DNA from: Pseudomonas lurida
GTDB taxonomy: Bacteria; Pseudomonadota; Gammaproteobacteria; Pseudomonadales; Pseudomonadaceae
DNA length: 64,000 nt
Reading direction: 5' to 3'
Assembly (NCBI RefSeq): GCF_002563895.1
Contig: NZ_PDJB01000001.1
Span: forward strand, 541,501 to 605,500
Shown: positions 45,980 to 61,276 of the stretch, piece by piece
Layout of the letters: every line of letters starts with the position of its first letter
Numbering within the stretch: the first letter of the stretch is position 1
Notes under the pieces: generated by a model
Database searches by the model: none
Told to the model about the DNA's origin: nothing
What the model saw: only the letters and a program-made list of their open reading frames with translations
Translations under genes and position numbers: made by a program

Positions 45980-45987
45980 GGCTCCGT

Positions 45988-48142
<2,155 letters not shown>

Positions 48143-56238: not shown

Positions 56239-56311
56239 GCCATCCCTTTTTTGAATTGACCCGGTGCAGCGGCAGTCCCGTTGCGCCTTACCCGACAATG
56301 ATGAGGCCCGC

Positions 56312-58576
56312 ATGAGTGACATCCTCGCAGACAGCTTAGATGGCGTAGAACGCCGGTCGCTGGCTGACTTCACCGAAAATGCCTACCTCAACTACTCCAT
56401 GTACGTGATCATGGACCGTGCCTTGCCGCATATCGGCGACGGCCTGAAGCCCGTGCAACGGCGCATCATTTACGCCATGAGTGAGTTGGGCCTGGACGCC
56501 GATTCCAAGCACAAGAAATCGGCCCGTACCGTCGGTGACGTGCTCGGTAAATTCCACCCCCACGGCGACTCGGCGTGCTACGAAGCCATGGTGCTGATGG
56601 CCCAGCCTTTCAGCTACCGCTACACATTGGTAGACGGCCAGGGTAACTGGGGTGCGCCGGATGATCCCAAATCCTTCGCCGCCATGCGTTACACCGAAGC
56701 CCGCCTGTCGCGGTACTCGGAAGTGCTGCTTAGCGAGCTGGGCCAAGGCACTGCGAACTGGGGGCCGAACTTTGACGGCACCCTCGAGGAACCGCTGGTG
56801 TTGCCGGCACGTTTGCCGAATATCCTGCTCAATGGCACCACCGGCATTGCAGTCGGCATGGCCACCGACGTGCCGCCGCACAACCTGCGGGAAGTCGCCA
56901 GCGCCTGCGTACGCTTGCTGGATGAGCCCAAAGCCACGGTCGAGCAGCTCTGCGAGCATATCCAGGGCCCGGATTACCCGACCGAAGCAGAAATCATCAC
57001 GCCGCGTGCCGACCTGCTGAAGATGTACGAAACCGGCAAGGGCTCGGTGCGCATGCGTGCCGTGTACCACATCGAAGACGGCGACATTATTGTCACCGCG
57101 TTGCCGCACCAGGTGTCGGGTGCCAAGGTGCTGGAGCAGATCGCCGCGCTGATGCAGGCCAAGCCGTCGAAACTGCCGCAGGTTGCCGACCTGCGTGACG
57201 AGTCCGACCACGAAAACCCATGCCGCATCGTGATCATCCCGACCAACAGCCGGGTCGACCACGAAGTGCTGATGCAGCACCTGTTCGCCAGCACGGACCT
57301 TGAGTCCAGCTACCGGGTCAACGTCAATATCATCGGCCTGGATGGCAAGCCGCAGCTGAAAAACCTGCGCAACCTGCTGGTGGAGTGGCTGGAGTTCCGC
57401 GTGCAGACCGTGCGTCGCCGCCTGCAATTCCGCCTCGACAAGGTCGAGCGCCGCCTGCACCTGTTGGACGGTTTGCTGATCGCCTACCTCAACCTGGATG
57501 AAGTGATCCACATCATCCGTACCGCCGAGCACCCGAAAGCCGAGCTGATCGCGCGTTTCGAGCTGAGCGAGATCCAGGCCGACTACATCCTCGACACCCG
57601 CTTGCGCCAGTTGGCGCGACTGGAAGAAATGAAGCTGCGCGATGAACAGGACGCGTTGCTCAAGGAGCAAGCCAAGCTGCAAGCCTTGTTGGGCAGCGAA
57701 GCCAAGCTCAAGAAGCTGGTGCGCAGCGAACTGATCAAAGACGCCGAAACCTACGGCGATGACCGTCGGTCGCCTATCGTCGAACGTGCCGAAGCTAAAG
57801 CGCTGACTGAAACGGAGCTGCTGCCAAACGAGAAAATTACCGTCGTTCTGTCGGAAAAGGGTTGGGTTCGCTCCGCCAAAGGGCATGATATTGACGCCAC
57901 TGGTTTGTCATACAAGGCCGGCGATGGGTTCAAGACTGCCGCGGCCGGGCGTTCCAACCAGTTTGCGGTGTTCATCGACTCCACCGGGCGCAGTTATTCG
58001 GTGCCGGCCCACACCTTGCCTTCGGCGCGAGGGCAGGGCGAGCCGTTGACCGGGCGCCTGACGCCGCCGCCAGGGGCGAATTTCGAGTGCGTGCTGCTGC
58101 CGGATGATGACGCGCTGTACGTGATTGCGTCCGACGCGGGTTACGGTTTCGTGGTCAAGGGTGAAGACCTGCAGGCCAAGAACAAGGCGGGCAAGGCTCT
58201 GTTGAGCTTGCCTAACAACGCCAAGGTGATCCTGCCGCGGCCGGTGGACGACCGTGAGAGCAACTGGCTGGCATCGGTAACCACCGAAGGGCGCTTGCTG
58301 GTGTTCAAGATCAGCGACCTGCCGCAGCTGGGTAAAGGTAAGGGCAACAAGATCATCGGTATTCCCGGCGAGCGGGTGGCCAGTCGCGAAGAGTACGTGA
58401 CCGACATCGCGGTGATCCCGGAAGGCGCGACCCTGGTGCTTCAAGCCGGTAAACGCACGTTGTCGCTGCGTCCTGACGACCTTGAGCACTACAAGGGCGA
58501 GCGCGGTCGGCGTGGTAACAAATTGCCACGTGGTTTCCAGCGAGTGGATGCTTTGTTGGTCGAAACGCCGGTTTAA
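56312..58576 (+). CDS. parC: DNA topoisomerase IV subunit A
   Basis: Cleavage/religation subunit of topoisomerase IV. The 754 residues equal the P. aeruginosa length. The catalytic tyrosine is Y127 (A-M-R-Y-T-E-A-R). The quinolone-resistance region keeps the susceptible residues S87 and E91 ([10 protein letters not shown]). The C-terminal part (about 490-754) is the degenerate GyrA-like beta-pinwheel that senses supercoil geometry. The ATG at 56312 gives M-S-D-I-L-A-D-S; the longer frame from 56264 has no family support. It is followed by a strikingly self-complementary intergenic region. Confidence 0.97.
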
Positions 58577-58582
58577 GGCTAA

Positions 58583-58801
58583 CAGGGGGCGTCTCAGTGT
58601 GCTGCGTTGCAGGTCGTGGAAAGGGAAAAACCATTCCCGGCGGCCTGCGCCTTGCCTGGCCCGCTTTAAGGTGACAACGCGGTGAGGAAACTCACTGAGA
58701 ACGCCTCCTGGAGCCCTCGATCTACGATTTAACCCGTAGATCGACGCTTTGGCGCTGGAGTCATGGCGCATATTCACGGATGATATGGCCTTTCCAGCGC
58801 C
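58583..58801 (+). ncRNA. Candidate structured RNA (unknown family) downstream of parC
   Basis: The region 6 bp past the parC stop folds almost completely on paper. Domain A: an outer helix pairs 58583-58592 with 58701-58710 and 58593-58599 with 58693-58699 (17 bp, one bulged A). It encloses 58602-58608/58676-58682 (7 bp), 58609-58616/58641-58648 (8 bp), a GGGAA/TTCCC hairpin (58623-58638) and CCTT/AAGG (58650-58671). Domain B: TCGATCTACG/CGTAGATCGA (58717-58744). Domain C: GGCGCTGGA/TCCAGCGCC (58751-58801) around an 8-bp inner stem. Three pairs in domain A are G-U wobbles only as + strand RNA, supporting that strand. It could be a parC 3' UTR product, a leader of the next gene or an independent RNA. 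I recognise no family, and there is no U-tract. Confidence 0.55.
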
Positions 58802-58875
58802 GGCGTGGCCGAGCGTGTTTAGGTTATTTTTAAGTATTACATTGTGGTTCGCCTTGTGGCAGCCACCTGGATGGG

Positions 58876-59589
58876 ATGATGACTGCTCCACGCCTTCCTT
58901 TTATTTTCATGCTCGCTGGCCTTTTGGGGCTGGCGGGTTGCAGCACACATCAGCCGGTGTCGCTGTACCAGCTGGACAGCGGAAGTCCGGCTCAACCAGC
59001 ACAGACCGCCGGCATGGCCGTCTTGTTGGGCCCGGTGGTCGTCGCAGACTACCTGCAACGCGAAACGCTGCTGCAACGTCAGAACGACGGCAGCCTGCAA
59101 GGTTCCACCGATGGTCGCTGGGCGGGCAGCTTGTCCTCTGACATCAACCAGTTGATGTTGCGGCAGGTGGCCGGCCAATTGGACAGCCAGCGCGTGGTGC
59201 TTGCGCCCGCACCTACCGGCTTCACACCGGATGTGCAGGTTTTGCTGACCATTACCCGGCTCGACTCCGGGACCTCGCAGCCGGCGATCCTCGATGCGCA
59301 ATGGCGCTTGATCGACCGTCGTGGCCAGGTTCGCGATAACCGTATCGTGCACCTGCAGGAGCAACACTCCGGCACCACCGCGTCCCAGGTCCAGGCCCAG
59401 GGCGTGTTGTTGCAGCATTTGGCGCAACAGTTGTCGGTGGCGCTCAAGCCATTGGCCAACCAGCCGCCGATTGCCGAGGCACCCCGCAAGCAGACCGCTC
59501 CGGCACAGGCCAAGCCGGCAGAGCCGCAGAAGCCGAAAATGCCGATGGCCACGCCGATCCGTACGGATATGGAAGTGTTCAGGTTCTAA
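58876..59589 (+). CDS. PqiC-like ABC-transport auxiliary lipoprotein
   Basis: A 237-residue outer-membrane-type lipoprotein: signal with L-A-G-C, lipidated Cys22. The mature part, starting S-T-H-Q-P-V-S-L-Y-Q-L-D, resembles PqiC/DUF330 lipoproteins that partner MCE-type lipid transport systems (P-V-V-V-A-D-Y-L-Q-R and W-A-G-S-L-S-S-D-I-N). No MCE gene is nearby, so the partner must be elsewhere. The C-terminus is Pro/Ala/Lys-rich. There are two possible ATGs (58876, 58879). The candidate structured RNA lies directly upstream, and a strong terminator follows. Confidence 0.83.
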   Translation: MMTAPRLPFIFMLAGLLGLAGCSTHQPVSLYQLDSGSPAQPAQTAGMAVLLGPVVVADYLQRETLLQRQNDGSLQGSTDGRWAGSLSSDINQLMLRQVAGQLDSQRVVLAPAPTGFTPDVQVLLTITRLDSGTSQPAILDAQWRLIDRRGQVRDNRIVHLQEQHSGTTASQVQAQGVLLQHLAQQLSVALKPLANQPPIAEAPRKQTAPAQAKPAEPQKPKMPMATPIRTDMEVFRF

Positions 59590-59603
59590 TCTGAATGGCA
59601 GAC

Positions 59604-59635
59604 AAAAAAAGGCCCGCTTACTCAGCGGGCCTTTT
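59604..59635 (+). terminator. Rho-independent terminator
   Basis: GGCCCGCT-TACTC-AGCGGGCC (59611-59631) is followed by TTTT and preceded by seven A residues, 14 bp past the lipoprotein stop. The A/T runs suggest it can also serve the minus strand, but the nearest minus-strand gene (stop at 59774) is 140 bp away. Confidence 0.93.
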
Positions 59636-59670
59636 GTTTGGCCATGCCTTGGGGCCTGGCACCTTCCCAC

Positions 59671-59757
59671 TGTAGGAGGGGGCTTGCCCCCGATAGCGGT
59701 GGTTCAGTCAGCGATGTGCTAACTGATACTCCGCTATCGCGGGCGAGCCCGCTCCCA
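59671..59757. repeat. REP doublet with structured spacer
   Basis: Arms 59671-59699 and 59731-59757. The inner ends GATAGCGG/CCGCTATC pair perfectly, and the spacer carries CAGT...ACTG. The spacer pattern GGTTCAGTCA...ACTGATACTCCGC recurs in the doublet at 62646. Confidence 0.85.
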
Positions 59758-59773
59758 GATGGGTCACGCCGTG

Positions 59774-61276
59774 TTATTTGGCGCGGGTCTCGTGCATCCG
59801 TGCCAACTGCCGTTCCAGCATCGATGGGTACGGTTCCATCAACCGTTCCACGCAACTGGCGCCCTCAGGGCTGGCAATCGGGCGGATCCGTGCGCGTTGG
59901 CGAATCAGCGTGTCTTCACTAATCTTGCGCTCGACCAGCAGCAGGTTGCGGCTGTGTTGGGACAAGGCGAGGGCATCCTGGGCGATCTCGGTGAGCAGCA
60001 GGTCGATCTGGCTCATGCCGAACAGATCGTCGCCGACCGTCAGGCCAAGCTGCAATTGCAGGGTGATGCCGCTGTCCGCCACTTCGATTTGCAATTCATG
60101 GCCCAGGGCGCGCAGCAACTCGCCGCAGCAGATAGCGTTGGTCAGGTAGTCTTCGCCGCTGTCTTCGCTGTGGAACAGCATCAGCGTGCTGCCATCGTTC
60201 AGCGTGTGCAGTTCGCTCTGGTACAGCGATGCGGCCTGGTCGAGGCAGTCACGGTAGCGTTCCAGCAACTCGGTCAGGCGCGCGCGCGGCAGGCGACGCA
60301 GTTGGTCCTGGGCACCCAGTTGCACCGCCAGTACGGCGCTGTACTGGGGCTCGGCGCTCTTCACCGGGGCCGGTTTGGCGGCAACGGCCGGGGCGCTGGC
60401 CGAGGTGTCGCGCAGGTCGGCGAACGGGTCTTCGTCGTCCAGTTCGTCTTCTTCGGCCTTGAACGCCTGGCGGGTGGCCGGCTTCAGGCCCGCCACCGGA
60501 GCGTCTCGCACTTCAAACTCGGGCTCGTCGTCGTAGTCGGTGTCGTCGAACTCAGGCTCGGGTTCCACTTCGCGCACGACTGGTTCTGGGGCGAAGCTGG
60601 CGTGAAGCTGGCGCGCGAGGTCGCCAATTTCATCCTGGCGGTCCGTCGCCGGGGTGTGCTCGTCGATGTCCCGCAGCCAGATACGCAGTTGCATCAGTGG
60701 CGTGGAGATATGTCGGCCCAGGCGCAAGCTCAGGGCTAGGGCCAATGCCAGCAGGATCGCGCTGAGGATGCCCATGCTTTGCAGGCTGATGGTCATCGGC
60801 TGCTGGAATTGCTGCATATCGAGGCTGATACGCAGTTGGCCTGCCTTCACATCCTGAAACGTGATATTGCTCTGATAAAGCCCTTCGGCTTCACCCAGCA
60901 GGCCGTTTTTCGGGCGCTGCCCGGCCTCGGCCATGATCCGGTTGTCCACGCTGTAGATGGCGGCGTGGGCCACCAGCGGGTTCTTGGTCAGGTTGTTGAG
61001 CAGCACGTTGAGGCTGAGGATGTCGTTGGACACCAACAGCTCAGTCGCCGAGGTGGCGGTCTGGGTAGTCAGGCTCTCGCCCAGGGCGTCGGCTTGCTCG
61101 TGCATGGCCTGCTTGAACTGCAATCCCATCACGCAGGCGTAGATCACCAGGGCCAGGGCGACCAGGATCACGTTATGGCTGGCGATGCGTAATGCGATCG
61201 GTACACGGCGGTGGCGCAGTGCCCGGAAGATCAGCAGGAAGAAATTATCGGTTTTTACTGGCGTGGGCCGGTTCAC
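59774..61276 (-). CDS. YtjB/AhpA-family membrane protein with HAMP
   Basis: A 500-residue protein at the serB locus, as YtjB (Smp) is in E. coli. It has transmembrane helix 1 (about 33-52), a periplasmic sensor-like region, helix 2 (about 165-187) and a HAMP-like segment (R-L-G-R-H-I-S-T-P-L). A long acidic, low-complexity linker (many Asp/Glu, about 235-310) follows. A C-terminal domain starts Y-S-A-V-L-A-V-Q-L-G and has the outline of a degenerate nucleotide cyclase (L-L-E-R-Y-R ... L-N-D-G-S-T-L-M-L-F). The start is GTG at 61276: a minus-strand promoter lies just upstream, which excludes the longer frame to 61339. By position it is PAO1 PA4961. Confidence 0.82.
   Translation of the reverse strand: MNRPTPVKTDNFFLLIFRALRHRRVPIALRIASHNVILVALALVIYACVMGLQFKQAMHEQADALGESLTTQTATSATELLVSNDILSLNVLLNNLTKNPLVAHAAIYSVDNRIMAEAGQRPKNGLLGEAEGLYQSNITFQDVKAGQLRISLDMQQFQQPMTISLQSMGILSAILLALALALSLRLGRHISTPLMQLRIWLRDIDEHTPATDRQDEIGDLARQLHASFAPEPVVREVEPEPEFDDTDYDDEPEFEVRDAPVAGLKPATRQAFKAEEDELDDEDPFADLRDTSASAPAVAAKPAPVKSAEPQYSAVLAVQLGAQDQLRRLPRARLTELLERYRDCLDQAASLYQSELHTLNDGSTLMLFHSEDSGEDYLTNAICCGELLRALGHELQIEVADSGITLQLQLGLTVGDDLFGMSQIDLLLTEIAQDALALSQHSRNLLLVERKISEDTLIRQRARIRPIASPEGASCVERLMEPYPSMLERQLARMHETRAK

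Follow-up and report, generated by a model that had tools for sequence, protein, structure and literature searches.

The domain A element described below has as its nearest studied case, among those we have seen, MITEPsy1 of Pseudomonas syringae pv. phaseolicola, which the excerpted account describes as 100 nt long with 18-nt ends, as seen to transpose, and as having CTAG or YTAA for its reported target (PMC3189936). In the genomes of P. fluorescens SBW25, Pf0-1 and Pf-5, Silby and colleagues described several families of intergenic repeats, R0, R2, R178, R200 and others, of which R178 is 101 bp long with internal inverted repeats and R200 is 320 bp long (excerpted account, PMC2718517). REPINs consist of two inverted units that form a hairpin and are dispersed between genes; each unit is a short REP, and REPs are associated with RAYT transposases (excerpted account, PMC3116915).

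The present locus lies between parC and a gene for a PqiC-like lipoprotein in Pseudomonas lurida, and was studied within a stretch of 64,000 nucleotides, here called the window. The first part of the locus, domain A, is like MITEPsy1 in being short and non-coding, with inverted ends, several copies and a CTAG-rich target, and unlike it in being about 265 bp long when complete, in having a two-hairpin core and another end sequence, and in being known from sequence alone (compared with excerpts of PMC3189936). With the repeats of the three P. fluorescens genomes it shares dispersal, intergenic position, hairpin formation and species complex, and R178 or R200 could be the same family, the comparison being one of descriptions (excerpts of PMC2718517). 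Like REPINs it has two inverted units that form a hairpin and lie dispersed between genes, but its units are about 100 nt long and lie inside long terminal arms (compared with excerpts of PMC3116915). Open-access literature searches returned no recognised description of the element, the promoter or the leader treated below, and a search with the exact letters returned no paper.

Composition of the Region

The original prediction took positions 58583-58801 for one structured RNA of 219 nt in three domains, A, B and C. Its dense self-complementarity is borne out, since the + strand folds at -114.3 kcal/mol (z -7.57), compared with a mean of -77.88 (sd 4.81) for its dinucleotide shuffles, of which 0/200 reached the same stability. 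The helices of all three domains were found as described when the fold was checked, and the three G-U pairs 58587-58706, 58603-58681 and 58614-58643 are where they were said to be. The prediction had also recognised no known RNA family, in agreement with Rfam, which gave 0 matches at E up to 5 in 58400-59000 and, in the whole window, two gathering-level matches that both lie outside 58583-58801. The stability of the fold cannot pick the strand, however, because the reverse strand is strongly folded too, at -102.1 kcal/mol (z -6.43), far below its own shuffles.

A single RNA of 219 nt is not supported, because the three domains differ in history: domain A is an insertion, and the outer helix of domain C shows no covariation. 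Very probably, the region consists of three unrelated features that abut, namely a copy of a palindromic repeat, a hairpin at the 3' end of parC and the probable promoter of the next gene, with the leader of that gene following. These parts are all of known kinds, and the locus illustrates how a real hairpin with an insertion and a promoter for neighbours can pass for one large RNA. The features are as follows.

56264-58576, + strand: parC, the upstream gene (TIGR01062 parC_Gneg, 1110.8 bits)
58583-58710, no strand: domain A, a MITE-like palindromic element of a dispersed family, here with an internal deletion (copies elsewhere, alignment to the full copy L035)
58717-58744, + strand: hairpin B, 10 bp, assigned to the 3' region of the parC mRNA (covariation, 59 G-U and 9 A-C deviations)
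58755-58785, + strand: probable promoter of the PqiC-like gene (fixed spacing in 92/94 gaps, linkage to the lipoprotein gene)
58756-58761 and 58779-58784, + strand: -35-like TGGAGT and -10-like GATGAT, separated by a 17-bp spacer
58796-58817, + strand: leader hairpin D with a GUG loop (covariation, 79 G-U and 8 A-C)
58844-58866, + strand: leader hairpin E, which ends nine bases before the ATG (covariation, 39 G-U and 4 A-C)
58876-59589, + strand: gene for a PqiC-like ABC-transport auxiliary lipoprotein (PF03886, E 1.8e-34; 30.3 bits against NCBIfam pqiC, under the cut-off of 200)

Samples and Counting Rules

From 298 genomes, 100 gaps were chosen with preference for divergent ones, and 94 of them have a recognisable parC end. 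Alignments A1 (66 rows), A2 (70) and A3 (70) were built from the window and gaps of the main lineage; not in A1 are L113 and L174-L176, the latter three having long inserts. The rows of the alignments are related by descent, and the pair counts given below are not counts of independent events.

To exemplify how a strand may be assigned, consider a helix in which pairing is kept because it serves an RNA. In this case, G-U pairs are tolerated on the transcribed strand and A-C pairs are not. For hairpins B, D and E and domain C, G-U and A-C were counted only at pairs where half or more of the cells are Watson-Crick, which applies to 10/10 pairs of B, 9/9 of D, 8/9 of E, 4/10 of the outer helix of C and 6/9 of its inner helix.

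Domain A as a Copy of a Dispersed Element

A search with 58570-58880 gave matches in 61/115 genomes, and these are of two kinds. From about 58711 onward, the query aligns with the gap that precedes the lipoprotein gene. Its part from about 58600 to 58709 has matches elsewhere, on either strand and, in some genomes, several times. The genome of the window has a second, near full-length copy of 265 bp with arms of another subfamily (G000:C1:5515976-5516178; L032, L328).

At the parC site itself, the printed flanks of 27 orthologous gaps, judged by eye, show the parC stop followed directly by domain B in 23, a shrunken copy of the element in two (L014, L015) and a remnant of its right end in two (L019, L020). 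The distance from the parC stop to the first promoter box, which is 178 nt in the window, is 28-57 nt in 63/69 gaps of the main lineage, so that these have no such insert; it is 61 nt in 3/69 and 106-108 nt in 3/69.

Twenty loci of the element were read with their flanks (L032-L051) and twenty more were fetched. Full copies are 259-267 bp long; shorter ones fall into classes of 157-172 bp and 55-58 bp. A full copy has terminal arms that start with GGG and end with CCC, the ends being like GGGTCTGTTGACG, around a pair of imperfect hairpins that are inverted relative to each other. In the window copy, the left arm (58583-58599) runs straight into the top of the second hairpin, and in a pairwise alignment with the full copy L035 the middle is missing. 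From this fusion follows that about 140 bp are absent from the window copy. Some of the pairing originally drawn for domain A involves sequence whose former partner is no longer there. No open reading frame of 60 or more amino acids lies wholly within the copy (58583-58710).

The two arms vary in concert. Over 24 positions, they agree to 97.2% within a copy and to 63.5% between copies at 36/40 loci, where the arms were taken as the best GGG...CCC pair, a choice that favours complementarity, and where the four loci that failed the arm criterion scored 10-13 of 24. For nine subfamily representatives, the corresponding values are 98.1% within a copy and 50.9% between subfamilies.

The element is thus MITE-like: it is short and non-coding, it has terminal inverted repeats, albeit with an arm sequence that varies by subfamily, unlike usual transposon ends, and it occurs in dispersed copies (20 of them read with flanks) as well as being absent from orthologous sites. 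Full membership of the MITE class is not claimed, because no autonomous partner was found and the target duplication is ambiguous. Concerning the latter, TA precedes the left arm in 26, follows the right arm in 27 and does both in 18 of the 46 loci, out of 54 given, in which arms were found (in 3/46 the inner helix was picked), and these TA may belong to the arms because TA is self-complementary. Concerning the former, exact end patterns gave 37 matches in 16 genomes, 10 in 10 and 51 in 12, and pairs of ends facing each other were at most about 283 bp apart, so that no partner with the same ends emerged from these patterns.

A copy of the element, with some 140 bp of its middle gone, thus follows the parC stop codon and precedes the hairpin at the parC 3' end, and we picture the element as one that would have been moved by a transposase acting in trans. 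In the wider order, matches to the element occur in 28/194 genomes and in 17/96 genera, short matches included; both counts are lower bounds because at most 4 candidates were scored per genome. Among plasmids, 4/72,556 records match, those of Halomonas, Azotobacter and P. aeruginosa with 73-75% identity over 70-72% of the query. No annotated feature lies beneath the match, which says little because one of the three records examined has one feature in total. No phage matched the element. A tentative and somewhat doubtful extension is that domain A belongs to a little-described palindromic family, spread over an order of Gammaproteobacteria, in which the hairpin core is conserved and the arms change in concert. 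If this were true, the concerted arms would fit an element that is recognised by its hairpin shape, or arms that are continually copied from each other, and they would speak against recognition by a fixed end sequence. The element, being widespread, is a testable by-product of the analysis, and the concerted change of its arms is worth following.

A separate observation concerns the flanks. In several copies (L036, L038, L042-L044, L047, L049), the DNA bordering the arms forms an inverted repeat of its own, as though insertion had taken place in the loop of a terminator-like hairpin that was already there.

Palindrome in DNA or Structure in RNA

The 29 full-length copies fold equally on both strands, at -172.3 and -172.0. 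At the 88 pairs that are predicted on both strands, 54 of which show two or more Watson-Crick types, the deviations comprise 18 G-U, 24 A-C and 42 others; the count used 29/33 copies, L032, L033, L321 and L322 being left out for size or orientation. The near equality of G-U and A-C and of the two folds argues that the self-complementarity of domain A is that of a DNA palindrome and not of a strand-specific RNA. The three G-U pairs had been said to be valid only if the RNA is the + strand, and for domain A this argument fails, since G-U deviations in the family are no more frequent than A-C. A structured RNA family had also been tried as a candidate for domain A, on a structure predicted for one strand that gave 153 G-U and 24 A-C. 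It was rejected as an artefact, because the structure had been predicted on that very strand. Here, then, the count of G-U and A-C deviations at strand-neutral pairs told the DNA palindrome from the RNA hairpins.

The Hairpin at the 3' End of parC

Hairpin B behaves differently from domain A. Its arms vary widely between species. In 64 distinct sequences, 82.2% of the cells are paired, compared with at most 43.3% when the helix is slid. The covariation score is 0.416, compared with 0.189 for shuffled alignments, and the deviations (59 G-U, 9 A-C) show a strand preference. Counting against it, double changes occur in 8 pairs, which does not stand out from the 7.4 of shuffled alignments. Covariation and tolerance of G-U on one strand were found together for hairpins B, D and E, and the comparison among species argues that B is a real + strand RNA structure at the parC 3' end. 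We assign it to the parC mRNA because it lies upstream of the putative promoter.

As an intrinsic terminator of the usual kind it was rejected because it lacks a T run: the bases after the stem are not T-rich (alignment A1), and a scan of the + strand for terminators in 58200-59800 found none. Hairpin B may cap or stabilise the end of the parC transcript, or mark a cut site; an end cap or a processing signal is its likeliest role. Of the suggestion that the region is a parC 3' UTR RNA, what stands is a covarying + strand hairpin just after parC; the extent proposed, and domains A and C as parts of it, do not.

A Probable Promoter in Domain C

In domain C, the outer helix pairs no better than shuffled alignments do, and the inner helix hardly better. 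In the outer helix 71.7% of the cells are paired, the shuffled mean is 71.7%, and there is no excess covariation; that it exceeds its slid versions is expected, since the helix was taken from one of the rows. The inner helix is paired in 69.9% of the cells, compared with 68.7% when shuffled, and its covariation score of 0.107 was reached by 2/500 shuffles and exceeded by two slid versions (0.210 and 0.119). G-U is not in excess over A-C in either helix (22:28 in the outer, 13:17 in the inner). With the outer helix at the shuffled mean and G-U not above A-C, domain C was rejected as a structured RNA, and its outer helix is read as a coincidence among the close relatives of the window. The check for covariation in relatives that the original prediction had proposed therefore separates the domains, in that hairpin B covaries and the outer helix of C does not.

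What is conserved in domain C is instead CTGGAGTC and TTNNCGGATGATA at a fixed distance. The pattern TGGAGT-N17-GATGAT occurs in 92/94 gaps when spacings of 14-22 are allowed and the letters between are variable, and in each of the 92 the spacing is 17, as in a sigma70-type promoter, in which two hexamers are separated by a 17-bp spacer. Columns 0-6 and 23-26 of the gap are invariant in the 92/92 sequences that have the box pair. In A3 the invariance is partly by construction, because rows were picked by the box pattern, and 92/94 is the independent figure for conservation.

The boxes go with the lipoprotein gene rather than with parC. In L126 they stand before the lipoprotein gene and not next to parC, and a further lipoprotein gene lies upstream; in L127, the box pair is with the lipoprotein gene and parC is about 200 bp away; and in L183, where no parC end was recognised, the pair reads TGGAGC-N17-GATAAT. 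L179-L182, which have neither parC nor boxes, have, by eye, other coding-looking sequence directly upstream. The box region is missing in 2/94 gaps (L121, L150). In the genome of the window, the pattern has one exact match, one match with 1 mismatch and 22 with 2, and a backwards control gave 8. Among named genomes at least 120 stretches match, and 79/80 of the matches listed are from Pseudomonas.

Counting against a promoter, a scan for consensus promoters in 58200-59800 gave no site at 9 of 12 or better against TTGACA and TATAAT. The pair resembles a sigma70-type promoter in its 17-bp spacer and its -10 box GATGAT (GATAAT in L183), and differs from one in the atypical -35 box TGGAGT and in being nearly invariant across the sampled genus. 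The fixed spacing and the linkage make it most likely that TGGAGT-N17-GATGAT serves the PqiC-like lipoprotein gene as its promoter, in which case CTGGAGTC...CGGATGATA would be its two boxes and transcription would start near 58791.

Some gaps present special cases. In L126 (G162), a tandem pair of PqiC-like lipoprotein genes has the conserved boxes before its second member, and L121 (G023) and L150 (G267) keep hairpin E and the gene but no longer have hairpin D or the promoter boxes.

A Structured Leader

The proposed transcript would carry a leader whose two conserved hairpins end shortly ahead of the start codon. Across 70 sequences, 92.3% of the cells of hairpins D and E are paired, compared with at most 56.7% when slid, and 15/18 pairs have changed on both sides, compared with 8.0 when shuffled. 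Taken singly, hairpin D has both-side changes in 9/9 pairs with 91.0% of cells paired, and hairpin E in 6/9 pairs with 93.7%. The ratios of G-U to A-C, 79:8 in D and 39:4 in E (8/9 pairs), show a strand preference. Probably, the leader tunes translation or stability of the PqiC-like mRNA. The idea that the region is a leader of this gene holds in so far as a conserved structured leader exists; it starts at about 58796, at the very end of the region proposed, and hairpins D and E lie mostly beyond 58583-58801.

A covariance model of the leader, run on 95 genomes of the order (two of the genus) with strict filters, found only the copy in the window's own genome. Among 31 stretches outside the model it gave 4 matches at E up to 0.01: two are L150 and L121, which are without promoter boxes, and the other two, L136 and L129, are more distant. 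The leader is like structured 5' leaders of bacterial mRNAs in that a pair of covarying hairpins lies downstream of the promoter and ahead of the start codon, and unlike them in having no Rfam family match and one copy in its own genome. The nearly invariant putative promoter, which is worth following, and the structured leader, both for a PqiC-like envelope lipoprotein across Pseudomonas, are a further testable by-product.

Alternative Explanations

The region could still be read as one + strand structured RNA, either a parC 3' UTR RNA or an sRNA, that spans all three domains. Its fold is about as stable as that of a good RNA, and domain A is steadier on the + strand (-68.7) than on the - strand (-55.7). 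This reading is nevertheless extremely improbable, since domain A is missing from most relatives read, its family has no strand preference and the outer helix of C does not covary. Less far-fetched, though still unlikely, is that the inserted element arose as DNA but has since taken on a function in the parC transcript, such as that of an RNase III-type stem or of a brake on transcription between parC and the lipoprotein gene. If transcription of parC runs on, the insert must fold, and shortened copies occur at the parC site also in G029, G016 and G195, but 63/69 gaps of the main lineage do without such an insert, and the lack of strand preference in the family speaks against this as well.

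For domain C, the box pair might be the operator of an activator or repressor, with the promoter proper elsewhere in the gap. The conservation, with columns invariant in 92/92 sequences, is stronger than that of a usual promoter, and no consensus promoter was found; against this, the hexamer spacing of 17 bp and the GATAAT of the outlying L183 fit a sigma70-type promoter, and we regard an operator as the less plausible reading by far. RsmA/RsmE proteins, of the CsrA family, have the consensus CANGGANG, which the loop UUCACGGAUGA of domain C resembles, its GGA sitting in the hairpin loop in the window. From the window alone, a hairpin bound by these proteins, with a role in control of the lipoprotein mRNA or as a sponge, was attractive. 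It was rejected because the CANGGA core is absent in 35/92 sequences (present in 57/92) and the hairpin is weakly kept. The conserved part is, moreover, CGGATGATA with its partner box at a fixed distance, and the site lies upstream of the putative transcript start, which together make such a hairpin very improbable. We retain the promoter of the lipoprotein gene as the preferred reading of the boxes.

Other Features of the Window

After the lipoprotein gene, at 59607-59635, there is a terminator-like hairpin that was scored on the - strand, and between this gene and the next, at 59671-59759, two inverted GC-rich repeats appear REPIN-like by eye. Elsewhere in the window, 21222-21348 matches the TwoAYGGAY RNA (RF01731, 60.2 bits) and 45984-46089 the TPP riboswitch (RF00059, 87.5 bits).
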